A DNA stretch of 64,000 nt from an uncultured Clostridia bacterium (GTDB taxonomy: Bacteria > Bacillota > Clostridia > Monoglobales > Monoglobaceae). Shown here in pieces: positions 32,428-44,238 of the stretch. The position numbers and the translations under genes were made by a program. A model generated the notes under the pieces. It was not told the origin of the DNA, made no database searches, and saw nothing but the letters and a program-made list of their open reading frames with translations. The stretch covers positions 298,149 to 362,148 of the forward strand of contig CAKSFQ010000001.1 of the NCBI GenBank assembly GCA_934454115.1, in the 5' to 3' direction. Within the stretch, counting starts at the first letter, position 1. Each line of letters begins with the position of its first letter.

Positions 32428-33273
32428 TTATCGGCGCACGGCATCGCAAACAGTAGGGTAAAGCGCCGCTTTATCAAGCGTTCTCTCCAAGTATATTTCA
32501 TCGGCGAGCATTGCCTGATAAATCAGCATGCCAAGCCCGTTCATCGTGGCAAGCCGCCGCTCCTCTGCCGCGTGTAAAAAAGCGGTTTTGTCCGGGCGGT
32601 AAATCAGGTCGGACACAAGCGCATCAGGCGGCAGCGCGTCCAAAAAGGAAACATCCGTATAATCCTCCTTCACGCCCTGCATACCAAGCGGCGTTGCCTG
32701 AATCAAAATATCACAGGTTCGGCAGACGCGCTCTAAATTGTCATATGTCATGGAAAGCGGCGCTGCCGCCTTGCCCGTCTCCCTTTCGGCATCACCGCAA
32801 AGCTGCTCTGCCTGCGACAGAGTACGGTTGAGCACCGTCACCGATGCGGCGCCCTCATAGGATGCCTTTTTTAAAAGCGTCCCGGCAACACCGCCGGCGC
32901 CTAAAATCACCACATTCTTATCGGAAAATGTCCGCCCGATTGCTGCCAGCGCCGCCGTATATCCGGCCGCATCCGTGTTGTAGCCCAAAAGCCGTCCGCT
33001 CTTTTGATGAACGGTGTTCACCGCCTGAAAACGCCGCGCCTCCGTTTCAGTCTCATCAAGATACGGAAGGATATCCTTTTTATGCGGCATTGTCAGGTTA
33101 AACCCTGTCAGCGCCTCTTTTTTTGCGTATTCCAAAAACTGCGGAAGCGCTCCGCGTTTTACTTCGATCTTTTGGTATTCGTACGGCACATGGATTTGGT
33201 CTAAAATCGCGCCGTGCACTATCGGCGACAGGCTGTGTTCGATCGGGTCACCGATCACTGCAAGCTTGATCAT
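32428..33273 (-). CDS. aroE: Shikimate dehydrogenase
   Basis: The 281-residue NADPH enzyme reduces 3-dehydroshikimate to shikimate. GDPIEHSLSPIVHGA (residues 8-22) binds shikimate. NLTMPHKKDIL near 59 has the catalytic Lys, NTDAAGYTAAL near 99 the partner Asp, and the NADP loop ILGAGGVAGTLLKKA follows near 123. The closing NGLGMLIYQA is conserved. Its start overlaps the end of aroQ by 26 bp, tying its translation to that gene. Confidence 0.96.
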   Translation of the reverse strand: MIKLAVIGDPIEHSLSPIVHGAILDQIHVPYEYQKIEVKRGALPQFLEYAKKEALTGFNLTMPHKKDILPYLDETETEARRFQAVNTVHQKSGRLLGYNTDAAGYTAALAAIGRTFSDKNVVILGAGGVAGTLLKKASYEGAASVTVLNRTLSQAEQLCGDAERETGKAAAPLSMTYDNLERVCRTCDILIQATPLGMQGVKEDYTDVSFLDALPPDALVSDLIYRPDKTAFLHAAEERRLATMNGLGMLIYQAMLADEIYLERTLDKAALYPTVCDAVRR

Positions 33274-33706
33274 TGCGCAGCACCTCTTCTAACAAATAGT
33301 CCATGGCAAGCGTATATCCCCGAAATCCCAGGCCGCAGATCTGTCCGATGCAGGCCGGCGCCGTCACCGACTGATGCCGAAACGCGTCCCGTTTATGGAT
33401 ATTGCTCAGATGCACCTCAATACACGGCAGCTTGATCGCCGCCAAGGCGTCATAGATTGCGTAACTGTAATGGGTATACGCGCCAGGATTGATGACAATC
33501 GCGTCACAGCTGCCCAGTGCATGGTGGATAAAATCAATGATTTCACCCTCGCCATTGCTTTGCAGCACAATCACCTCAACCTGATGCGCCGCGCCGTACT
33601 GCTCCAGCTCCTGTTCCAGTGCGCTATAATCCTTTTTTCCATAAACGTCCGGCTCACGAACACCCAGCATATTAAGGTTCGGACCGTTAATCACCATAAT
33701 TTTCAT
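33248..33706 (-). CDS. aroQ: 3-dehydroquinate dehydratase, type II
   Basis: The 152-residue dodecameric type II dehydroquinase does the third shikimate step. The start MVINGPNLNMLGVREPDVYG holds the catalytic Tyr loop. LQSNGEGEIIDFIHHA near residue 50, NPGAYTHYSYAIYDAL near 77 and IEVHLSNIHKRDAFRHQSV near 100 (catalytic His) match the family throughout. It overlaps aroK by 20 bp and aroE by 26 bp, an unusually tight stack. Confidence 0.97.
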   Translation of the reverse strand: MKIMVINGPNLNMLGVREPDVYGKKDYSALEQELEQYGAAHQVEVIVLQSNGEGEIIDFIHHALGSCDAIVINPGAYTHYSYAIYDALAAIKLPCIEVHLSNIHKRDAFRHQSVTAPACIGQICGLGFRGYTLAMDYLLEEVLRNDQACSDR

Positions 33707-34193
33707 GCTCTGCTACCTCCTGCAAGATTTTTTCAACCGTTTCTTCCGGACGCATCACGCCGTCAATCCGAATCGCTGCCCATGCGCAATATAACGGATA
33801 CCGCGCCTGATATAATTGATATAGTCTTTCCTTTCCATCTGCCAAAAGCGGGCGAGAGCTTGTGTCAACGTCCTTAAAAATTTCTTCTAACGGACGGTTT
33901 AAAAAGACCACCTGTCCTCTCTTTGCGATTGGCTCGTTTTCTTTTCGGGTTACAATGCCGCCGCCGGTCGCAATCACACGGCCGCCGCGCACGCAATCTT
34001 CAAACACACGGGTCTCAATTTTCCGAAATCCCTCTTCTTTCTCGTCGGAAAAAATATCCGCGATACTTTTTTTGGCGCACCGTACAATCTCGGCGTCCAC
34101 ATCGACAAACGGACAGCCGAGCCTCTTTGCCAAAATCCTTGCAACTGTGGTCTTTCCCGATCCCGGCATACCGATTAAAATAATATCCTTCAT
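33687..34193 (-). CDS. aroK: Shikimate kinase
   Basis: The 168-residue P-loop kinase phosphorylates shikimate at the 3-hydroxyl. Walker A LIGMPGSGKTTVARIL is at residues 6-21. The shikimate-binding DVDAEI follows near 36, the Arg-containing FRKIETRVFE near 56, and the Walker-B-like VIATGGGIV near 75. RPLLAD near 119 belongs to the lid. It overlaps pheA by 4 bp. Confidence 0.96.
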   Translation of the reverse strand: MKDIILIGMPGSGKTTVARILAKRLGCPFVDVDAEIVRCAKKSIADIFSDEKEEGFRKIETRVFEDCVRGGRVIATGGGIVTRKENEPIAKRGQVVFLNRPLEEIFKDVDTSSRPLLADGKERLYQLYQARYPLYCAWAAIRIDGVMRPEETVEKILQEVAEHENYGD

Positions 34194-35356
34194 AACTGCT
34201 CCGGCTCCTTTACCGATCCTGCCGGATAGTTTCCAAGCAGCTTAAACCGCTGCGTTTCCGCAATCACGGCCTCAGTCACCGATCTGACATGCGGATCAGA
34301 CAGATTTCCGCTGTAGTCCACAAAAAACATGTACGAAAACGGCTGATTGGGGATCGGCCTGGATTCCAGCTTTAAAAGATTCAGTCCGCCCCGCACAAAG
34401 CAGGAAAGCACCCGATAAAGCTCGCCGCATTCGTGCGCTAAGGTAAACGCGATACTGATTTTATTGCATGCCGCACTGTTCTCCGGCCGTTTGGCAACCA
34501 CGGCAAAGCGCGTTGTGTTTCGTGCGCTGGTATTGACATTCTCTTTAAGAACTGTCAACCCGTAGAGTGCCGCGTTCTGCCGTCCGGCAATCGCGGCAAC
34601 GGTCGGATCATCGCTCTCAGCAACCATTCTTGCGCTCATCGCCGTACTGCAGCAGACCTCCTGTCTGACATCGCCCAGGGATTTCAGATAGTCCTTGGAC
34701 TGCAGCAGCCCCTGCTCGTGAGAATACACGGTTTTAATGTCGCCGACTGTGGTTCCCGCCTTGGCAAGCAGACAGTGGCAAATCGGCAGATGCACCTCGC
34801 CGACTATATAGCATCCGCAGCGTTCTAAAAGATCCATCACCTCCGCAATAGCGCCGGTGGACGAATTTTCAATCGGGACAACAGCATAGTCAGCGCGCCG
34901 CTTCTCCAGCGCCGCAAACGCCCCTTCAAAGCTGTCGGCGCAAAACCGCGTCTCACCCTCGCCAAAATATTGGATCGCCGCCGCCTCGCTGTACGAACCC
35001 TTGGTGCCGAAATAGCAAACGGAAGGATGTGCCGCCCGATCCTGAAGCTGCGTAAAATACGCGTAAAACTCTTCTTCCTTTTTTACATCCTTGATTTTCT
35101 TTGCCTGTAAACCGCGGCTGATCGCCATGACCGAGCTGAAAAATTCGTACACTGCCTCGTCATAGCCGGGTTTTGTCAAAAGCGCCTGTTTTTCTTTGAG
35201 CACCTGCTTTTCCCGTGCGGCGTCCAAAACAGGCAGCCCGTTCTCCATTTTATAGTCCGCGACCGCACCGCAAAGCTCCATCCGCTCGATAAAAAGGGGA
35301 AGCAGCTGCCGATCGATGCGATCAATTTCGTCTCTGAGTTCTCTTAAATCTCTCAC
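34190..35356 (-). CDS. pheA: Bifunctional chorismate mutase/prephenate dehydratase
   Basis: The 388-residue P-protein converts chorismate to prephenate and on to phenylpyruvate. The AroQ-class mutase helix bundle (1-90) starts LRELRDEIDRIDRQLLPLFIERMEL. The dehydratase domain (about 110-290) opens YFGTKGSYSEAAA and carries the catalytic NTTRFAVVAKR. The C-terminal ACT domain (about 300-380) contains ESRPIPNQPFSYMFFVD, the ESRP motif that binds Phe for feedback inhibition. The start is GTG, overlapping the aroC TAG by one base with AGGAG upstream. It ends 4 bp inside aroK. Confidence 0.95.
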   Translation of the reverse strand: MRDLRELRDEIDRIDRQLLPLFIERMELCGAVADYKMENGLPVLDAAREKQVLKEKQALLTKPGYDEAVYEFFSSVMAISRGLQAKKIKDVKKEEEFYAYFTQLQDRAAHPSVCYFGTKGSYSEAAAIQYFGEGETRFCADSFEGAFAALEKRRADYAVVPIENSSTGAIAEVMDLLERCGCYIVGEVHLPICHCLLAKAGTTVGDIKTVYSHEQGLLQSKDYLKSLGDVRQEVCCSTAMSARMVAESDDPTVAAIAGRQNAALYGLTVLKENVNTSARNTTRFAVVAKRPENSAACNKISIAFTLAHECGELYRVLSCFVRGGLNLLKLESRPIPNQPFSYMFFVDYSGNLSDPHVRSVTEAVIAETQRFKLLGNYPAGSVKEPEQL

Positions 35357-36438
35357 TAAAATCTCTCCTGCCTGCTACTTAGCATATCCAAAACCGCGAT
35401 TGCAGCGCCGGCCTCCACCACCGGTACCGCGCGGTGCACAATACAGGGATCGTGCCGTCCGTGAATCGAAAGTTCTGTGTTTTCCATGGTTTTGATGTTC
35501 ACCGTCTGCTGCGGCTTTGCAATGGACGGCGTCGGCTTTACCGCAACCGTAAAGACAATCGGCATTGCATTGGTGATACCGCCGTTAATCCCGGCGTTAT
35601 GGTTGGTTTTTGTCCTGACGATGCCATCCTCAGTATAAAAGGCATCGTTAGCCTCGCTGCCGGTCATTGCGGCAAAGTGAAAGCCCTCGCCGAACGCAAC
35701 CCCCTTCACTGCCGGAATGGAAAACATCATCGAGGAAATCCGGCTCTCTGCCGATCCGAAAAACGGATCGCCCAGCCCTGCCGGGATCCCGATTATGCCG
35801 CATTCAATCACGCCGCCGACGGAATCGAGTTCTTGTTTCTTTTCTAAAATATAGGCCTGCATTGCCGCGGCGCTTTCTTCACTTTGCGTCGGAAATGCAC
35901 AGTCTTTCAGTTTTTGCAGGGTTTCTTTTGACAGATGCACCGCGTCAAACGGCGTATCCTCGATCATGCCAAGCGTTTTGATATGCGCCCCGATCACGAT
36001 GCCGTGCTCGAATAAAACCTGCTTTGCCACCGCGCCGGCAAACACCAGCGGCGCTGTGATTCTACCGGAAAAATGACCGCCGCCGCGCCAGTCATGCGCG
36101 CTGCCGTACTTGACAAACCCGGTATAGTCCGCATGTCCCGGCCGCAACAGCTCCGGCGTGTAGTCCTTGGATCGCATATTGGTGTTAAAAATCACACCGG
36201 CAAGCGGTGTGCCGGTCGTTCTGCCCTGGAAAAAGCCGGACAGAATCCGCACCCGATCCGCCTCGCTGCGCGCTGTCGACATGGCATTTCTGCCCGGCGC
36301 ACGCCGCTGCATCTCCCGCTCAATTTCTTCCATATCCAGTTCTGTCCCGGCCGGAATCCCGTCTATGACAACGCCGATTCCCTCGCCGTGCGATTCTCCG
36401 AAAATACTGATTTTGATTCGCTCGCCCCAGGTGTTCAT
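35356..36438 (-). CDS. aroC: Chorismate synthase
   Basis: The 360-residue FMN-dependent enzyme makes chorismate from EPSP. All three family signatures are present: GESHGEGIGVVIDGIPAG near residue 14, the GHADYTGFVKYGSAHDWRGGGHFSGRIT region near 105-135, and RTKTNHNAGINGGITNAMPIVFTVAVKPTPSI near 270. HDPCIVHRAVPVVEA closes the active site. The start lies 24 bp after aroA. Confidence 0.97.
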   Translation of the reverse strand: MNTWGERIKISIFGESHGEGIGVVIDGIPAGTELDMEEIEREMQRRAPGRNAMSTARSEADRVRILSGFFQGRTTGTPLAGVIFNTNMRSKDYTPELLRPGHADYTGFVKYGSAHDWRGGGHFSGRITAPLVFAGAVAKQVLFEHGIVIGAHIKTLGMIEDTPFDAVHLSKETLQKLKDCAFPTQSEESAAAMQAYILEKKQELDSVGGVIECGIIGIPAGLGDPFFGSAESRISSMMFSIPAVKGVAFGEGFHFAAMTGSEANDAFYTEDGIVRTKTNHNAGINGGITNAMPIVFTVAVKPTPSIAKPQQTVNIKTMENTELSIHGRHDPCIVHRAVPVVEAGAAIAVLDMLSSRQERF

Positions 36439-36462: not shown

Positions 36463-37740
36463 CTACTTCGTTTTGCTCTGCTGCAAAGCCCGGTATACTG
36501 CAAAAAAATCGGGATAGGATTTCTTTACCGCCTCTTTGGCGCCGGTCAGCGTAACCGCGCCCTCACAGCGGCAGGCCGCGATCGAGAGCGCCATCGCGAT
36601 GCGGTGATCGTTCCATGCAGACACTGTCTCGCCGTGCAGCGTCTGGCTTCCCTCAATGGTTAAAGAATCCGTTCCCTCTTTGACACGCGCGCCCAATCGG
36701 CTAAGCTCCGACGCGATTGCCGCCAGGCGGTCGCTCTCTTTCATGCGTAGTCTCCCTGCGTTGATGATACGGCTCTCGCCTCTTAAAAAGGCGCAAAGCA
36801 CCGCCAGGATCGGAACCAAATCCGGGATCTCTCCGGCGTCAATTTCAATTCCGCGCATCGTGGCGGTCGGTTCCGCTCTCACACTGCCGTCTGAAAATCT
36901 TGTTAATTTTGCGCCGGTCTTTTCAATCAAAGAAAGAATCTTTCGATCGCCCTGCAGGCTGTCCGACCGCAAGCCCTTGCACCGAACGTCACATCCCAGT
37001 GCGCCGGCAACCAAAAAGAATGCCGCCTGGGAATAATCCGCCTCTACGGTATAAGGGCACGCGCGGTATGCTTGTCCGCCGGGGATCTGAAACCGCCGAT
37101 AATTTTCATGGGTCACCGAAATCCCAAAGTCTTTTAGCACCGAAAGCGTCAAATCCAGATAGGCCTTTGACTCCATCTCGGTCGTGATCTCAATCATGCT
37201 ATCGCCCAAAAGCATTGGCAGCGCAAACAAAAGCCCCGACACAAACTGCGAGCTGACGTTGCCCGGCAGCGCATAGTGCCCGGCAGAGAGCGTGCCGCTG
37301 ACGCGCAAGCGGTCACCCTCCATGTGATAGGAGATTCCCTTCTTGTCAAAAATGGAAAAATACGGCGTTTGCGGCCGCTGCATCAAGCGTCCCTTTCCCA
37401 CAAAGGTAACGGTCTTTGCGCAGAGCAGCGCCAACGGAATCAAAAACCGCAGGGTCGATCCGCTCTCTTCGCAGCAAAGCACCGCCTCTTTTTTTATTCT
37501 GCGCTGCGCCGTCCTTTCAAATACGACCGTATGCTCTTTTTCGTCCACAGAGAACGCGGTGCCGAGCGCCTTCATGCATCTAAGCGTTGCCAAGATGTCC
37601 TTTGATGGCGCGATATTCCGGATTCGGCATGTCTCACGTGAGAGCGCCGCCGCAATGATGGCGCGGTGCGCAACGCTCTTTGATGGCGGAACCTGTACGG
37701 TACCGCGCAGCATATTAGGGTCAATGGTTAAAACGTCCAT
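36463..37740 (-). CDS. aroA: 3-phosphoshikimate 1-carboxyvinyltransferase (EPSP synthase)
   Basis: This 425-residue two-domain enzyme joins phosphoenolpyruvate to shikimate-3-phosphate. The start VPPSKSVAHRAIIAAAL holds the conserved Lys and Ser. EESGSTLRFLIPLALL near 90 is the NAGTxxR-type signature in the variant form (SGSTLR) common in Firmicutes. RMKESDRLAAIASEL near 340 and WNDHRIAMAL near 380 complete the site. The variant at the PEP loop may affect glyphosate sensitivity, but class cannot be assigned by eye. It lies between aroB and aroC. Confidence 0.95.
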   Translation of the reverse strand: MDVLTIDPNMLRGTVQVPPSKSVAHRAIIAAALSRETCRIRNIAPSKDILATLRCMKALGTAFSVDEKEHTVVFERTAQRRIKKEAVLCCEESGSTLRFLIPLALLCAKTVTFVGKGRLMQRPQTPYFSIFDKKGISYHMEGDRLRVSGTLSAGHYALPGNVSSQFVSGLLFALPMLLGDSMIEITTEMESKAYLDLTLSVLKDFGISVTHENYRRFQIPGGQAYRACPYTVEADYSQAAFFLVAGALGCDVRCKGLRSDSLQGDRKILSLIEKTGAKLTRFSDGSVRAEPTATMRGIEIDAGEIPDLVPILAVLCAFLRGESRIINAGRLRMKESDRLAAIASELSRLGARVKEGTDSLTIEGSQTLHGETVSAWNDHRIAMALSIAACRCEGAVTLTGAKEAVKKSYPDFFAVYRALQQSKTK

Positions 37741-37755
37741 GGTTTCCTCCCAATC

Positions 37756-38811
37756 TTACGACAAAGCAAATTCGTCCTTATCCACCTTTTTCACCAGAAC
37801 CGATCCGATTTCTTTCAATAAAATCAGATTGATTTTGCCGCCCTCTCCCTTTTTATCGACAGAGACGGCCTCTTGCAGCGTCTTGGCGGTCAATTCGGTA
37901 CGGATCGGCAGCCCAAACTGGGTGAGCAGCTTTTCCATCCGCTCCCGCGTGCCGGGCGCGGTGATATGGCATTTTTCGCCCCACGCACAAGCCATCACCA
38001 TGCCGATTGCCACCGCCTCGCCGTGCGTATAGGTTTGGTAAGCATACTGCTTCTCTATGGCGTGGCCGAAGGTATGTCCAAAGTTTAAAATCATCCTGCT
38101 GCCGGTGTCATGCTCATCCTCTTCGACCACCCGGCGTTTGATATCACAACTAGTATACACGATTTCTGGAATTTTTGCAAACAATTCTTCCCGGCATTTG
38201 ATCTGCTCCAGCATTGCAAAAAATTCCGCGTTCCGGATCGCCCCGTACTTGATCACCTCCGCCATGCCGTCCGCCAGGTTGCGAACCGGCAGAGTCTCTA
38301 AGCACGAGGGGTCCATCAGCACCATTTTGGGCTGATAAAACGCGCCGACCAGGTTTTTCCCTTTGGGAAGATCAATGGCAACCTTGCCGCCCACGCTGGA
38401 ATCAACCTGCGCCAAAATGGTGGTGGGAATCTGCACAAACGGGATACCGCGCAGCAGTGTCGCCGCCGCGAATCCGGCAAGATCGCCCACAACGCCGCCG
38501 CCCAAGGCAATCACAAGATCCGTCCTCGTCATGCCAAAATCCAGCATCTCGTCATAGAGCATAAAAAGCTGTTTTTGATCCTTGCTCTCCTCTCCTGCCG
38601 GAATCTGACAGGTATGCACCAAATACCCTGCCTCCTCCAGCGAGGCACGCAAAACGCCGGCATAGAGAGGGCCGACATTGCTGTCCGTGATAATGGTAAT
38701 TTTTTCTCCCTGATATACGGTACGGATTTCTTCTCCGGCGCGGCGGAGCAAGCCGTGTTCGATACGGATGTCATAGGACCGTCCGGGAAGATTGACACGC
38801 AGGTTTTTCAT
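37756..38811 (-). CDS. aroB: 3-dehydroquinate synthase
   Basis: The 351-residue NAD- and metal-dependent enzyme makes 3-dehydroquinate from DAHP. The NAD-binding ALGGGVVGDLAGFAAATLLRGIPFVQIPTTILAQVDSSVGGK region (from about residue 100) is fully conserved. The metal ligands lie in ADGMAEVIKYG near 185 and LNFGHTFGHAIE near 240. Start 38811 follows AGGTG at 6 bases; a GTG three codons upstream overlaps that site. It lies 5 bp after tyrA. Confidence 0.96.
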   Translation of the reverse strand: MKNLRVNLPGRSYDIRIEHGLLRRAGEEIRTVYQGEKITIITDSNVGPLYAGVLRASLEEAGYLVHTCQIPAGEESKDQKQLFMLYDEMLDFGMTRTDLVIALGGGVVGDLAGFAAATLLRGIPFVQIPTTILAQVDSSVGGKVAIDLPKGKNLVGAFYQPKMVLMDPSCLETLPVRNLADGMAEVIKYGAIRNAEFFAMLEQIKCREELFAKIPEIVYTSCDIKRRVVEEDEHDTGSRMILNFGHTFGHAIEKQYAYQTYTHGEAVAIGMVMACAWGEKCHITAPGTRERMEKLLTQFGLPIRTELTAKTLQEAVSVDKKGEGGKINLILLKEIGSVLVKKVDKDEFALS

Positions 38812-38816
38812 TTTGT

Positions 38817-39707
38817 TCACCTATCTTTTCTGTTTTCCTGATACAATATTTCGGGTTCTGCCTGCTGCATGACCTCTTTATTTTCTGCTGCCGTCTTTAA
38901 AAGCGCCGAAAGCGCCGCTGCATCGCCCGTCTCGATCGCCGTCCGAAGTCGGTTTAAACTGTTTTGGTAGCGGTCAAGTTCTAAAATCACATTCTCCCGA
39001 TTGGACAGAAACAGTTCTGTCCACAGTTTGGGATTAATTTTCGCAATTCTGGTACAGTCCCGAAATGCGCCGGCCGTATAGGCACGGTTCATCGCGTGCG
39101 GAAAGTCCAGGCAGAGTCCTGCCGCCGCAAGGTGCATCAGATCACTGGTATAGGCGATGATACGGTCGTGTTCCTTGCAGTCGGCCGCGGTAATCCGTGT
39201 CGCGCCGATATAATGCGCCATCTCGGCCACCAGAGCAACGCTCTCCTCCTTTGCGTGCTCCATCGGCGTAATGATAAAGCCCGTCATCCAGAAAAGCTCC
39301 GCACTGGCATAGGAAAAACCGCTGTTCTCCGTCCCGGCCATGGGATGGCCGCCCACGTAATCCACGCCGCTTGGGAGCAGCTTTGCCATACCGGCCGCCA
39401 CCTCACACTTGATGCCGCAAACGTCCGTTACCACAGTCCCCGGCCGAAAGGCGTTCCGGTTTTCCTGCACAATCTTTAAAATAGCTTCCGGATAAACGCA
39501 TAAAACAACAAGGTTTGCATCCTTGATTGCCTCTGCCGGATCTCCCACCACGCGGGAGAACACTTTACTCTTCTCCGCTGCCGCTCTGGTCTTTGGATCA
39601 ATGTCACAGCCAATGATTTCGGCATCGTGAAATCCGCGCAGCGCCATTGCAAGGGAGCCGCCGATCATCCCAAGGCCGATCACGGCAACACGAAAATGTT
39701 CTTCCAT
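38817..39707 (-). CDS. tyrA: Prephenate dehydrogenase
   Basis: The 296-residue NAD-dependent enzyme decarboxylates prephenate to 4-hydroxyphenylpyruvate for tyrosine. VIGLGMIGGSLAMALRG (from residue 9) binds NAD. VTDVCGIKCEV near 100 and GGHPMAGTENSGFSYA near 125 (catalytic His) are family marks, followed by the helical dimer domain. No ACT domain is present, so the feedback site is not obvious. Start 39707 follows AAGGAG at 8 bases. The 97-bp gap to aroF contains an R2-like segment at 39739-39770. Confidence 0.93.
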   Translation of the reverse strand: MEEHFRVAVIGLGMIGGSLAMALRGFHDAEIIGCDIDPKTRAAAEKSKVFSRVVGDPAEAIKDANLVVLCVYPEAILKIVQENRNAFRPGTVVTDVCGIKCEVAAGMAKLLPSGVDYVGGHPMAGTENSGFSYASAELFWMTGFIITPMEHAKEESVALVAEMAHYIGATRITAADCKEHDRIIAYTSDLMHLAAAGLCLDFPHAMNRAYTAGAFRDCTRIAKINPKLWTELFLSNRENVILELDRYQNSLNRLRTAIETGDAAALSALLKTAAENKEVMQQAEPEILYQENRKDR

Positions 39708-39804
39708 CTGATATTCTCCTTTCGTCGAAAGAGAGTCATCCGAACCCCGATTTTGGGAGGCGGATTTCCGCTTTCGCTGCGTTAAAATACCCGTCACCCT
39801 TCGG

Positions 39805-40821
39805 CTAAACTGCGATGCCAAGGCTCTCCCCGGTCTTTCCCAGCTTGTTCATCAAATCGTCAAACTGATTAAGATTCAGCGACTGTGCTCCGTCGCACAA
39901 GGCTTTCTCCGGGCAGTTGTGCACTTCGACAATCAGTCCGTCCGCGCCGACCGCCATCGCAGCCAGAGACAGCGGTTCTACCATCCAGCTCATTCCGGCC
40001 GAGTGCGACGGATCAACAATCACAGGAAGATGGCTCAGCCGCTTTACCGCCGGAATCGCACTGAGATCCAGCGTGTTTCTGGTATAGGTCTCAAAGGTGC
40101 GGATGCCGCGCTCGCACAAAATCACATTGGGATTGCCGCCGGCCAGGATATATTCCGCCGACATCAGCCATTCCTCAATGGTTGCGGACAAACCGCGCTT
40201 TAACAAAATCGGCTTGCTGCATTTGCCAAGCTCCTTAAGCAGATCAAAGTTTTGCATGTTTCTTGCGCCGACCTGAATCAGATCAACGTCACGTTCAAAG
40301 ATCTCTGCCAGCGCCGGAGACATGATCTCCGTCACGATCGGAAGCCCGGTTTCCGCTTTTGCCTTCTTTAAAAGCTCCAGCCCGGCAAGCTCTAAGCCCT
40401 GAAAAGAATACGGCGAGGTTCTGGGCTTAAATGCGCCGCCGCGCAGCAGCATGGCTCCTCTTTCCTTCACGCCGTTTGCTACGGTTAAAATCTGCTTTTC
40501 ATTCTCCACCGAACAAGGCCCCGCAATCACCGTAAAGGTGTTTTCCGCACCAATCTTCGCGTCACCTACCGAGACCACGGTGCGATCCGGATGGAACTTT
40601 TTGCTTGCCTTTTTAAACGGCTCGGCAATCCGCATCACCCGATCTACATGCCGGTTCAGCATCAGCGTATCCGGGTCGATCCGGCTGGTATCGCCCAAAA
40701 GCCCCAGCACGGTACAGTCAACGCCCTCGTTCACCATGACGTCCAGTCCCATATCCTTGATATAGGATATCATCTTTTCCACATCGTCCTGCGATGTGCG
40801 CGGTTTCATAATTACAACCAT
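39805..40821 (-). CDS. aroF: DAHP synthase with N-terminal ferredoxin-like regulatory domain
   Basis: This 338-residue enzyme catalyses the first shikimate step, joining PEP and erythrose-4-phosphate. The N-terminal 70 residues (MVVIMKPRTSQDDVEKMISYI) form the ferredoxin-like domain that gives Tyr/Phe inhibition in Thermotoga-type enzymes. The barrel follows, with AGPCSVENEKQIL near 95, RGGAFKPRTSPYSFQG near 125, QVGARNMQNFDLLKELG near 185 and VDPSHSAGMSW near 270. Start 40821 follows GGAGG at 8 bases. It is the first enzyme gene of the operon, directly after the leader-peptide attenuator. Confidence 0.95.
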   Translation of the reverse strand: MVVIMKPRTSQDDVEKMISYIKDMGLDVMVNEGVDCTVLGLLGDTSRIDPDTLMLNRHVDRVMRIAEPFKKASKKFHPDRTVVSVGDAKIGAENTFTVIAGPCSVENEKQILTVANGVKERGAMLLRGGAFKPRTSPYSFQGLELAGLELLKKAKAETGLPIVTEIMSPALAEIFERDVDLIQVGARNMQNFDLLKELGKCSKPILLKRGLSATIEEWLMSAEYILAGGNPNVILCERGIRTFETYTRNTLDLSAIPAVKRLSHLPVIVDPSHSAGMSWMVEPLSLAAMAVGADGLIVEVHNCPEKALCDGAQSLNLNQFDDLMNKLGKTGESLGIAV

Positions 40822-40908: not shown

Positions 40909-40938
40909 AAAAAAGGCAGGTTCCTTTGAACCCGCCCT
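40909..40938 (-). terminator. Attenuator terminator upstream of aroF
   Basis: On the minus strand GGCGGGTTC pairs with GAACCTGCC (9 bp, one G-U) around an AAAG loop, followed by six T. It lies about 30 nt after the leader-peptide stop and 87 bp before aroF, so it must be read through to express the operon from the upstream promoter. Confidence 0.85.
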
Positions 40939-40994
40939 TTTTATTTTACATTCATAAAATATCGACTTACGCAGCAAGTCCAGGCTCAAAGGAA
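40915..40994 (-). promoter_or_regulatory. Mutually exclusive antiterminator/terminator region of the aro operon
   Basis: A segment inside the leader-peptide coding region (minus strand TTCCTTTGAGCC, 40983-40994) can pair over 12 continuous positions, with one G-U, with the terminator's 5' arm and loop (TTCAAAGGAA region, 40921-40932). The two helices cannot form together. A ribosome reaching the leader stop would cover the first segment and allow termination. A ribosome stalled at the Phe/Tyr run would leave it free to form the antiterminator. This is the classic arrangement of amino-acid-operon attenuation. Confidence 0.75.
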
Positions 40995-41095
40995 GTTTTC
41001 AAATCATTCATAGCAAAATAGCCGTAGCCAAAAAAGCTAAAGCTAAAGACAAAATAATATGCTGCGGACGCTATGATGTGTTTTAACCCGTTCAT
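40967..41095 (-). CDS. Aromatic-rich leader peptide of the aro operon
   Basis: A 42-codon ORF lies between a strong promoter and an intrinsic terminator. Residues 13-27 (YYFVFSFSFFGYGYF) contain four Tyr and six Phe. The start ATG is preceded by AGAGGA at 8-9 bases. Start codons further upstream in frame precede or overlap the promoter and would not be on the transcript. Its codons for T-S-F-E-P form the antiterminator strand. The peptide is hydrophobic enough to be read as a small membrane protein, but the pairing pattern and the aro genes downstream favour a leader peptide sensing Phe and Tyr tRNA charging. Confidence 0.8.
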   Translation of the reverse strand: MNGLKHIIASAAYYFVFSFSFFGYGYFAMNDLKTSFEPGLAA

Positions 41096-41144
41096 GCCTG
41101 TAATTCCTCTCTGCGTTTTTTGATCTTGCAAAATCATTACAGGC

Positions 41145-41173
41145 ATTGTAGCACAGTTATCATAAAAAAGCAA
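41145..41173 (-). promoter_or_regulatory. Strong SigA promoter of the aro operon leader
   Basis: On the minus strand TTGCTT is followed after 17 bp by TACAAT with an extended -10 (TGCTACAAT). The -35 begins inside the last bases of the upstream terminator stem and its T-run, so the two signals overlap. Confidence 0.8.
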
Positions 41174-41210
41174 CCCCTTTTAAAAATTTTTTCAAAAAAA
41201 GGGGTTGCTC
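41163..41210 (-). terminator. Terminator of the AGCS symporter gene
   Basis: GCAACCCCTTTT pairs with AAAAGGGGTTGC and is followed by TTTTTT on the minus strand. On the plus strand the stem is followed by TCTTTCTTT, so it may also work in that direction. It lies 18 bp after the symporter stop codon. Confidence 0.85.
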
Positions 41211-41227
41211 TTTCTTTATTTCGGCTT

Positions 41228-42784
41228 TTATTTCAGCTTTTGATTCTCCAATTTTCCAAAGTATGCCTTGGTCTCTTTCGCGACAACACCGCTCAGCGCG
41301 AACAGCGCCACAAGATTTGGCAGCGCCATCAGACCGTTAAAGATATCTGCCAGCGTCCAAACAAAGGAAATCGTCAGATACGGACCGACCAGCACGGCCA
41401 GAATGTACAAAATCTTATACCCCATCAATGCACCCTTGCGGTCACCGACCAGGTATTGCAGACAACGCTCGGAATAATAATCCCAGCCCAAAATCGTGGT
41501 GAACGCAAAGAATATCAGCGAAATCATCAGCAAAAACGCGCAGACGTGGTTAGAAAAGGGCAAACCGCGCGTAAACGCCTCGGTCGTCACTGCCGCACCG
41601 GCTAAGGCGCCGTTCATTGCCTCTTGATAGGTATCCGTCAAAATAATGGACAGACCGGTCATGGTACAAATTACAATGGTATCAAAGAAGGTACCGGTCA
41701 TGCAGACCAGGCCTTGACGCACCGGCTCTTTGGTCCTGGCCGCCGCTGCCGCAATCGGCGCGGAACCGAGTCCTGCCTCATTCGAGAAAATGCCGCGTGC
41801 AATACCCTTTTGCATGGCCATCTTTATCGTGATACCGGCCGCACCGCCAAAGACTGCCTTGGGACAGAATGCCGATTTTATAACCAGCACAACGGCGCTC
41901 GGCAGCACCTTGATATTGGTAATCAGCAAAACAGCGCAGCAGACAAAGTACAAAATTGCCATGAATGGAACAATAATTTCAGAAACCTTAGAAATTCGCT
42001 GAATGCCGCCGATCACAACCAACGCTACAAAAAAGGTTACTAGCACACCGGCAATGACGATCGACCAGGAATAATCCGTACCGCCGATGGAGAATGCCAC
42101 ATATGCGTTTTGCGGATCAAAAAAGTTTTTTGCCGCCGAAGTGATTCCGTTAATCTGGGTGATGGTACCGATACCCAAAAGACCGGCCAGTACACCAAAG
42201 ATGGCAAACAGCTTGCCCAGCCATTTCCAGTTTTTGCCCATCCCCTTTTCAATGTAATAGAACGGACCGCCAAGCACCTTACCGTTTTCATCGATATTGC
42301 GGTACTTTACAGCAAGCAGTCCCTCGGCGTATTTGGTTGCCATGCCCAAAAATGCCGCAAACTCCATCCAGAAAAGTGCGCCCGGTCCGCCACCGGCAAT
42401 GGCGGTTGCAACACCGACGATGTTTCCGGTGCCGATGGTCGCAGAAAGCGCCGTACATAAAGCGCCAAAGCTGGAAACCTCGCCCTCGCCGTCCTCTTCG
42501 TTGGCAAACATATACTTGAGCGCCAGCGGAAGCTTATGTACCTGGAGAACGCCGACACGCACTGTCAGCAAAACTCCGGCAGACAGGATCAGAACGATCA
42601 GCGGTATTCCCCAAATAAAATCATCGATCTTTCCTAAAATATCTGTGAATGTGAGCGGCGCATTGTCTGTATTTTCAATTTTTTGACACCCGGTCAGCAT
42701 CAAGGTTGTCAAAAGTGTGATCAACAAGGTCATACTAAGGAGCAGCACACCCCTGCGCGTCGATTTTTTCCTGAAAAATCGCAT
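41228..42784 (-). CDS. Sodium:alanine/glycine symporter (AGCS family)
   Basis: This 518-residue integral membrane protein with about 10-11 helices couples Na+ entry to uptake of glycine or alanine. Family marks are GALCTALSATIGTGNIVGVATAI near residue 105, GPGALFWMEFAAFLGMATKYAEGLLAVKYR following it, and GIARGIFSNEAGLGSAPIAAAAA near 335. The N-terminal 45 residues include a hydrophobic stretch ending LMLTGCQ, which looks like a lipobox and is an odd addition for this family. A glycine riboswitch upstream makes glycine the likely substrate. Confidence 0.92.
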   Translation of the reverse strand: MRFFRKKSTRRGVLLLSMTLLITLLTTLMLTGCQKIENTDNAPLTFTDILGKIDDFIWGIPLIVLILSAGVLLTVRVGVLQVHKLPLALKYMFANEEDGEGEVSSFGALCTALSATIGTGNIVGVATAIAGGGPGALFWMEFAAFLGMATKYAEGLLAVKYRNIDENGKVLGGPFYYIEKGMGKNWKWLGKLFAIFGVLAGLLGIGTITQINGITSAAKNFFDPQNAYVAFSIGGTDYSWSIVIAGVLVTFFVALVVIGGIQRISKVSEIIVPFMAILYFVCCAVLLITNIKVLPSAVVLVIKSAFCPKAVFGGAAGITIKMAMQKGIARGIFSNEAGLGSAPIAAAAARTKEPVRQGLVCMTGTFFDTIVICTMTGLSIILTDTYQEAMNGALAGAAVTTEAFTRGLPFSNHVCAFLLMISLIFFAFTTILGWDYYSERCLQYLVGDRKGALMGYKILYILAVLVGPYLTISFVWTLADIFNGLMALPNLVALFALSGVVAKETKAYFGKLENQKLK

Positions 42785-42792
42785 AAAAAAAA

Positions 42793-42925
42793 CCCCTCCT
42801 TTTCAATTTCCCGGAGAGGGTAGAGTCCTATGCATCTCTGTCCTTTTGCCTGAGAGATTAACGGATTTGGCATCCGCCGTACACCTTCGGCGCTCTGCCG
42901 AAGCGCAGAGCCTCTCCAGAGTTAG
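42793..42925 (-). ncRNA. Glycine riboswitch, single aptamer
   Basis: Read on the minus strand, the leader shows the glycine aptamer core in order: GGAGAGGCUCUGCG, CGCCGAAGG, then CUCUCAGGCAAAAGGACAGAG. Only one full aptamer is present. The region after it contains CCCUC (42816-42820), which can pair with GAGGG inside the ribosome site AGGAGGGG (42793-42800), followed by eight U and the AUG. This suggests control of translation start, possibly with weak termination. Aptamer elements are at 42830-42920. Confidence 0.9.
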
Positions 42926-42960
42926 CCCTCCGCAATGCAGCGAACTAAAACAACTTTGCC

Positions 42961-44032: not shown

Positions 44033-44238
44033 TGAGAGAAGTCGTTCCCTGCTCTGTTCGTAATCGAGGTTACAATGTAAAACCAACACTTTTACAAAGG
44101 GGTTTTGTCTCCGGGAATTGCGCACACGCCTCATGCTTTACGCATCCAGTGGACTTGTAATGTTTCCGGGCGTTTTCCCACCTGGTTTCCAGGTTTTTAC
44201 AAAACCTTGTATTACGGCATGGCGGGGGCTTTTCTTTT
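44033..44238 (+). ncRNA. Structured non-coding RNA, probably 6S RNA
   Basis: A transcript of about 205 nt from the strong promoter would end in a U-rich tract (CTTTTCTTTT, 44229-44238). Its ends pair: CCCTGC (44048-44053) with GCGGGG, CGTAAT with ATTACG, and AGGTT with AACCT, forming an interrupted closing stem. Inner pairing, CCGGGAA with TTTCCGG, makes a second rod. A long rod with a large internal bubble and a terminator at the closing stem is the plan of 6S RNA, which binds the SigA RNA polymerase. The identity is inferred from size, folding and isolation between mecA and rsmD, not from a covariance model. Confidence 0.6.

Follow-up and report, generated by a model that had tools for sequence, protein, structure and literature searches.

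Structure of the aro locus

The window analysed here, a stretch of 64,000 nucleotides from an uncultured Clostridia bacterium (GenBank assembly GCA_934454115.1, contig CAKSFQ010000001.1, positions 298,149 to 362,148), contains on its minus strand a row of nine genes, aroF-tyrA-aroB-aroA-aroC-pheA-aroK-aroQ-aroE, encoding enzymes of the shikimate pathway and of its branches to phenylalanine and tyrosine:

39805..40821, minus strand: aroF, DAHP synthase, first gene of the operon (start 40821)
38817..39821, minus strand: tyrA, prephenate dehydrogenase
37756..38820, minus strand: aroB, 3-dehydroquinate synthase
36463..37740, minus strand: aroA, EPSP synthase
35356..36438, minus strand: aroC, chorismate synthase
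34190..35356, minus strand: pheA, chorismate mutase / prephenate dehydratase
33687..34193, minus strand: aroK, shikimate kinase
33248..33706, minus strand: aroQ, type II 3-dehydroquinate dehydratase
32428..33273, minus strand: aroE, shikimate dehydrogenase

The genes overlap or nearly do, and the row, which continues beyond aroC with pheA, aroK, aroQ, and aroE, is probably transcribed as a single unit. A pyridoxamine-kinase-like gene comes next after aroE, and no trp gene was present among the genes identified in the row. The closest AroF among the matches listed is 85% identical and comes from a Clostridia MAG, followed by proteins with 83% identity from records titled Monoglobus or Clostridia, so the window probably belongs to that family.

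The minus-strand leader region considered below separates agcS (41228-42784) from the packed aro gene row. A probable terminator of agcS (41165-41213, minus strand) overlaps the -35 element of the leader promoter with its 3' arm and T-run. A glycine riboswitch (42828-42929, minus strand) was found upstream of agcS, which encodes an amino acid carrier, and a 6S RNA (66.8 bits) at 44043-44232 on the plus strand.

Leader ORF and promoter

The following features were assigned to the 5' part of the leader:

41145..41173, minus strand: leader promoter (-35 TTGCTT, 17-nt spacer, extended -10 TGC-TACAAT)
41105..41112, minus strand: Shine-Dalgarno-like sequence of the leader ORF, AGAGAGGA
40967..41095, minus strand: leader ORF of 42 codons, MNGLKHIIASAAYYFVFSFSFFGYGYFAMNDLKTSFEPGLAA, conserved in the family (ATG at 41095, stop TAA at 40969-40967)
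41015..41059, minus strand: control-codon run Y13-F27, 10 Phe/Tyr per 15 codons
41019..41045, minus strand: P1 hairpin, UAGCU-U-UAGCU / GGCUA-C-GGCUA (-10.6 kcal/mol, z -4.2)

A preliminary description of this DNA had reported a strong extended promoter. The extended -10 element is present (TG at 41153-41152, TACAAT at 41150-41145) and would place the transcription start near 41138; however, the -35 element (41173-41168) agrees with the consensus at 3/6 positions, and a consensus promoter scan did not list the leader promoter, so the promoter is strong only in part. In 11 of the 22 family loci listed, window included, the pattern TGnTAnn[AT]T is found no more than 100 nt from the leader start chosen. 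A Shine-Dalgarno match of 3-5 nt occurs at the chosen start in these 22 loci, the start having been picked partly on that match; in the window, the ribosome site described earlier could be recognized in AGAGAGGA. A perfect 11-nt inverted repeat, ATGCCTGTAAT / ATTACAGGCAT (41136-41146 and 41094-41104, minus strand), extends over the -10/start site and the start codon of the leader; its 8-nt core had no occurrences in 193 other upstream regions.

The ORF of 42 residues with 10 Phe/Tyr in 15, also noted earlier, was confirmed; it contains both Phe and Tyr codons and no Trp codon. Its aromatic density is far above chance. First, 60 dinucleotide shuffles of the whole window yielded no ORF of 15-80 aa with at least nine aromatics in 15. 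Second, the second-best ORF of the real window has seven. Finally, when the local intergenic stretch was shuffled 5000 times, 10 in 15 was never attained. The operon is preceded, in other words, by a short ORF enriched in codons for the products of the pathway, the translation of which is predicted. The P1 hairpin, missing from the preliminary description, extends from codon S18 to codon Y26 and lies wholly inside the run. A small 7-pair hairpin (40964-40980, minus strand) is located over the leader stop codon and is followed by a T-rich stretch.

Terminator and antiterminator

The 3' part of the leader contains two helices that share a strand:

40981..40994, minus strand: antiterminator 5' strand, TTCCTTTGAGCCTG, within the last third of the leader ORF
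40921..40934, minus strand: antiterminator 3' strand, overlapping the terminator from its 5' arm across the loop into the initial 3 nt of its 3' arm
40909..40939, minus strand: intrinsic terminator (stem 40937-40928 / 40923-40914, six-T run 40914-40909)

The terminator (-17.1 kcal/mol, z -5.1) is situated between the leader and the first gene, and its hairpin begins 27 nt past the leader stop, in agreement with the approximately 30 nt given previously. The antiterminator had been described as a helix of 12 pairs with the terminator 5' arm and loop. The helix exists, but it comprises 14 pairs (40994-40981 with 40934-40921) and therefore takes in, besides the 5' arm and the loop, the first 3 nt of the 3' arm. 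None of 200 codon-permuted leader ends paired as well with the terminator arm (z -4.7). The whole leader with the terminator folds at z -4.6, but taken alone, the coding part (40978-41096) has no unusual stability (z -0.8). The terminator and the antiterminator are mutually exclusive structures, masking by a ribosome being partial in the window and the folding outcome varying with transcript length.

Conservation in the family

A match to AroF was found in 31 of 38 family genomes. The family set used for comparison consists of 31 loci with at least 200 nt of upstream DNA, among them the window itself and a locus obtained by searching the order; two further loci (L102 and L111) were left out because their upstream DNA was too short. 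A leader with at least eight aromatics in 15 is kept in 28/31 loci of the set, window included. The three loci without an aromatic leader (L109, L110, and L112) have AroF proteins with 59-64% identity, and aroF genes of this type possibly encode a second, differently regulated DAHP synthase. One genome (G021) has two aroF matches, the lower one at 61%.

All 28 leader-bearing loci of the set have a terminator after the leader stop, and a segment complementary to the terminator 5' arm sits near the end of the leader ORF. The sequence of this segment varies by subclade (types TTCCTTTGAGCC, GTAAAGCCCG, GTATAATGAGCT, and TTCGAGAGAGCT), the pairing being kept. In 24 of the 28 loci, no more than 10 of 200 codon permutations equalled the pairing of the real sequence; the exceptions are L085, L098, L097, and L105, with 39, 35, 18, and 12 such permutations of 200, respectively. 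Comparison of relatives, which the preliminary description had named as the check on the aromatic run and both pairings, favors the proposal to the extent that sequences can: the run and the terminator are kept, and the antiterminator co-varies with the terminator.

A search with the P1 pattern of one family type gave a single hit per genome in 16 of the 38 genomes and no hit in the reversed control. In 14 of the 16 it lies just before aroF. The other two loci (L245 and L246) have no AroF match, and the leader there directly precedes a tyrA-like gene; the genes after the leader, named by eye, resemble tyrA, aroB, aroA, aroC, and pheA of the window, and a leader ORF, a pairing segment, and a terminator are present as well. 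These cases support the view that the leader stays with the operon even where AroF is not found, and they speak for the earlier suggestion that the leader would control the whole aro operon.

Distribution in the class Clostridia

Of 167 Clostridia genomes searched, 119 contained AroF at E <= 1e-60; seven of these were already in the family set, upstream DNA was taken for 100 of the other 112, and 81 loci could be anchored, while 19 unanchored loci (short gene piece, no tblastn hit) were dropped. A leader with at least eight aromatics in 15 was found at 40/81 loci, compared with one on the antisense strand and 0.4 in shuffles. Similar numbers were obtained for the best 80 of 580 confirmed named loci (leader at 37, antisense 1, shuffles 0.43), the loci with a leader including records titled Clostridium, Clostridioides, Sporomusa, Synergistaceae, Treponema, and Spirochaetaceae. 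All 40 class leaders have a terminator between the leader stop and aroF, with 2.4 expected from single-base shuffles; among leaderless class loci a terminator within 160 nt was found in 9/32. One locus (L067) has a leader and, by the rule used, lacks the terminator.

The claim that such an arrangement is unusual in Clostridia does not hold, because a leader precedes aroF in 40 of the 81 sampled loci, and leader-peptide attenuators of Firmicutes are already in print, as are Phe/Tyr uORF candidates for shikimate genes. Judged from this sample, the predicted leader is common in the group rather than peculiar to a single genome. Roughly one half of the Clostridia aroF loci sampled have no leader, and a T-box before aroF was detected in only one of 40 loci scanned (32 leaderless and eight of the 19 unanchored). 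This sole case is a T-box upstream of an aroF-like gene at 299-570 on the minus strand of L148.

To compare each leader end with terminators of other loci, as well as for the P1 tests described below, we used 92 nonredundant leaders of 119 with a terminator, near-duplicates having been removed. In this swap test, the own terminator was placed at a median rank of 10-11% among all (KS p 8e-25 and 8e-23); the test is conservative where many leaders share AATGAG/CTCATT, and liberal since relatives are not independent, so that these statistics overstate significance. Some class loci clearly failed the test (L125, L079).

The P1 hairpin in the control codons

Codon choice in the run is biased towards P1. 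When 92 leaders were compared with synonymous codings of an unchanged peptide, the real runs proved more stable, with a mean z of -1.5 under pooled codon usage (70 leaders below -1, none above 1) and of -1.7 with uniform usage (62 below -1, one above 1). Serines at three columns of the P1 stem are encoded by AGY codons in 36/37, 29/30, and 38/39 cases (103/106 in total).

Pair counts were made for 87 of the 92 leaders, with the register fixed by peptide alignment. The real leaders form 595 of 870 possible P1 pairs. Exchanging 3' strands among the leaders gave 510 +/- 10 (maximum 545), and sliding them gave 350/783, 380/870, and 230/783. P1 also shows compensatory changes: at one position two-sided changes yield 26 T-A, 19 G-C, and 10 G-T combinations, and another position has 30 A-T and 9 T-A, but also 18 G-G mismatches. 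The hairpin is not universal, as at least eight of ten pairs are formed in 40/87 leaders and at most five in 25/87, and the run has no hairpin of -4 kcal/mol or better in 16/92 leaders.

The peptide motif S-x-[SG]-(F/Y)3-[SG]-x-G-Y-F recurs among the leaders. A constraint at the peptide level was considered as the reason for the conserved Ser and Gly and rejected, the AGC and GGC codons being those of the P1 stem. Nothing indicated that the run pairs with the antiterminator segment (mean z 0.01, 86 loci), and this pairing was rejected. A trp-type protector helix received little support, with a mean z of -0.7 over 89 loci, 34 of them below -1 and eight above 1; the window had 0.0. The minimum-energy fold of the window pairs the leader start region with the antiterminator strand.

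Proposed mechanism of regulation

In the enteric trp and his attenuators, the position of the ribosome selects the antiterminator or the terminator, and a hairpin near the control codons pauses the polymerase; this 1:2 hairpin also protects against the antiterminator. Unlike it, P1 looks like a separate element. Taken together, the features of the leader make it highly probable (roughly 0.87) that the element is a ribosome-mediated transcription attenuator, which would sense charged tRNA-Phe and tRNA-Tyr and control the whole shikimate/Phe/Tyr operon. The ribosome-position switch, suggested already in the preliminary description, is supported by the comparison of relatives, in which the predicted leader ORF, terminator, and antiterminator are conserved, P1 being conserved too, although not in every clade.

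The classical scheme would apply as follows. When phenylalanine and tyrosine are sufficient, the ribosome would reach the stop codon and cover part of 40994-40981, allowing the terminator to form. When either amino acid is short, the ribosome would stall in the run, leaving 40994-40981 free to pair with the emerging terminator 5' arm, and the operon would be transcribed. Two less certain steps may precede this choice: RNA polymerase would make P1 and pause about 11 nt later at the T-rich stretch, and a ribosome translating the run would then melt P1 and free the polymerase, so that both proceed in step.

Folding of partial transcripts was examined under ribosome masking with an assumed ribosome footprint. 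In the transcript to 40922, 13 antiterminator pairs are formed with the ribosome on codon 15, 22, or 27 or with no ribosome, and one pair with the ribosome at the stop. In the transcript to 40919, the antiterminator (14 pairs) forms only with the ribosome at codon 27, and not with the ribosome at codons 15 or 22 or without one. In the full-length transcript at equilibrium, the terminator is folded at all 12 masked ribosome positions and without a ribosome, hence the switch must be kinetic. As to geometry, 55 of the 92 leaders have confident antiterminators (rank <=0.15). Of these, 51 lie beyond a ribosome on the last codon of the run; a ribosome at the stop would cover half or more of 34 and less than half of the other 21. 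Half of the antiterminator core is under such a ribosome in the window. The terminators of 91/92 leaders start beyond the footprint of the ribosome at the stop codon. On the basis of the antiterminator folding and the footprint geometry, we hold to ribosome-mediated attenuation.

A further proposal concerns P1 itself. The Phe/Tyr control codons may fold into a dedicated RNA-polymerase pause hairpin that is meltable only by the ribosome reading them. In bacteria whose NusG promotes pausing, the leader would then be a coupling device that sets its own timing, and it would represent a single old family of leaders that has stayed with the aro operon across Clostridia and is found before aroF also in records titled Treponema, Spirochaetaceae, Synergistaceae, and Sporomusa. 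We consider this proposal possible but doubtful; if true, the device would matter where polymerase might otherwise outrun the ribosome. A somewhat better case can be made for the view that attenuation is right and P1 is not a pause signal, the hairpin serving to slow the ribosome or to keep the run from other pairings; this, too, we regard as possible rather than probable.

The location of P1 in the translated run is in line with the second view, since hairpins can slow ribosomes. In many clades P1 ends right before a T-rich stretch, which speaks for a pause: a hairpin and a T-rich stretch at such a set spacing are the layout of NusG-dependent pauses described in PMC12288461. A T-rich stretch is, however, expected from Phe codons anyway. 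Moreover, the motif TTNTTT is found near the hairpin in only 35 of 76 leaders having one and is absent by the same test in the window, so the pause stays a proposal. NusG of relatives bears on both views. Residue N81 is present in 8/8 relatives, in favor of pausing, but position 82 is T in three and Cys in five (L215, L216, L218, L219, and L220); the numbering fits PDB chain 8ehq_G, which we take to be B. subtilis NusG and which has T82. The Cys at position 82 in these five counts for the second view.

As a proxy for coupling, we compared the distance from stop codon to terminator for 379 ORFs of the window and its relatives (74 terminators) with that for 81 ORFs in 100 kb of E. coli (19 terminators); no difference was observed (p 0.85), and this comparison, based on crude ORF calls and a small control, neither supports nor contradicts coupling. 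A smaller run had provided 10 terminators from 116 ORFs.

Relation to known systems

Leader-peptide attenuation is an already known kind of regulation. Closest in gene context are the Phe/Tyr uORF candidates for shikimate genes that Stav et al. (2019, PMC6429828) predicted in a study of five genomes, Clostridium novyi and Thermovirga lienii among them; these possibly belong to the same family as the leader of the window. Compared by text and not by models, the accessible part of that paper gives no terminator/antiterminator test, Clostridia distribution, or pause hairpin, all of which are treated here. The uORFC-13-1 motif (Brewer et al., 2021, PMC8632094) resembles the window in having a uORF with Phe codons, an apparent terminator, a position ahead of aroF, and an extra base-paired substructure; it differs in that its 24 representatives are described only from Acholeplasma and environmental sequences, and in that it has one or more Phe codons, compared with ten Phe/Tyr codons in the run of the window. 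Classical leader-peptide attenuation is also reported for His leaders of Firmicutes (PMC9413887, PMC2965389) and for the ilv leader of S. aureus (PMC5794164), which concern other amino acids and genes. In mainly non-subscription literature, with PMC6429828 represented by its text only, we did not find a published account of a wide distribution in Clostridia or of a pause hairpin in control codons.

The E. coli pheL leader (RF01859) shares with the window a Phe-rich leader peptide, an aromatic gene downstream, and an intrinsic terminator. In the RF01859 alignment, however, the Phe-codon strand pairs beyond the stop codon, whereas P1 of the window lies entirely inside the run; besides, pheL lacks Tyr codons, having those for Phe only, and the gene that it precedes is pheA, while tyrA lies on the opposite strand. 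The RF01859 Phe_leader model had no match up to E 10 at the window leader, the control E. coli pheL scoring 132 bits.

Transcription in B. subtilis is reported to outrun translation (PMC7858274), and with a polymerase outrunning the ribosome it is difficult to see how terminators under ribosome control could work in Firmicutes. Should the proposed mechanism apply, the presence of such an attenuator before aroF at about half of the Clostridia loci sampled would mean that at least this leader is transcribed in step with translation there; the hairpin in the control codons suggests how such coupling could arise and offers a small test construct. The leader very probably lets the ribosome sense a shortage of phenylalanine or tyrosine and switch the operon on, and a mode of regulation can thus be tentatively assigned to the nine-gene shikimate/Phe/Tyr operon of a gut lineage.

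Alternative explanations

Other explanations of the leader region were weighed. First, the region could be a T-box, a TRAP target, or a metabolite riboswitch, the aromatic ORF being incidental. Firmicutes use T-boxes and TRAP for aromatic genes, and the family genomes use T-boxes elsewhere (a match in 37/38, 35 over the cut-off). Against this, no Rfam family was found at the window leader at the gathering score, and with E up to 10 the leader had no T-box (RF00230), only sub-threshold matches; T-boxes before aroF are rare in the loci scanned, as noted above, and the aromatic run is conserved far above chance. We consider this explanation very unlikely. Rfam searches at 20 class leader loci likewise produced no match at the gathering score and four weaker ones. 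The only T-box match at these 20 loci is one of the four, a truncated hit below threshold that lies on the opposite strand of L146. A T-box or another known RNA family as the identity of the leader was rejected on these searches.

Second, the leader might regulate translation of aroF and not termination of transcription, as some attenuators act on the ribosome-binding site (PMC9413887). The hairpin with its T-run, however, ends 88 nt upstream of the aroF start, thus leaving the aroF Shine-Dalgarno sequence (40837-40830) uncovered, and every sampled class leader has a U-tract terminator, so translational control is equally improbable.

Finally, it is hardly credible that the ORF encodes a small functional membrane-like peptide with the downstream hairpin merely as its own terminator: the leader peptide is hydrophobic, a terminator follows close behind, and the motif recurs, yet the stem-column serines are nearly all AGY and their letters form the P1 stem, which indicates a constraint on RNA, clades differ in the frame in which the C-terminal part is read across a shared AATGAG segment (SNE or LMS), and the terminator 5' arm usually matches its own leader end (median rank 10%).

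A common element was seen in several leaders (L135, L131, L119, L067, etc.), with a TAATGAGT-like sequence near the leader end and a ACTCATTA-like sequence in the terminator 5' arm.
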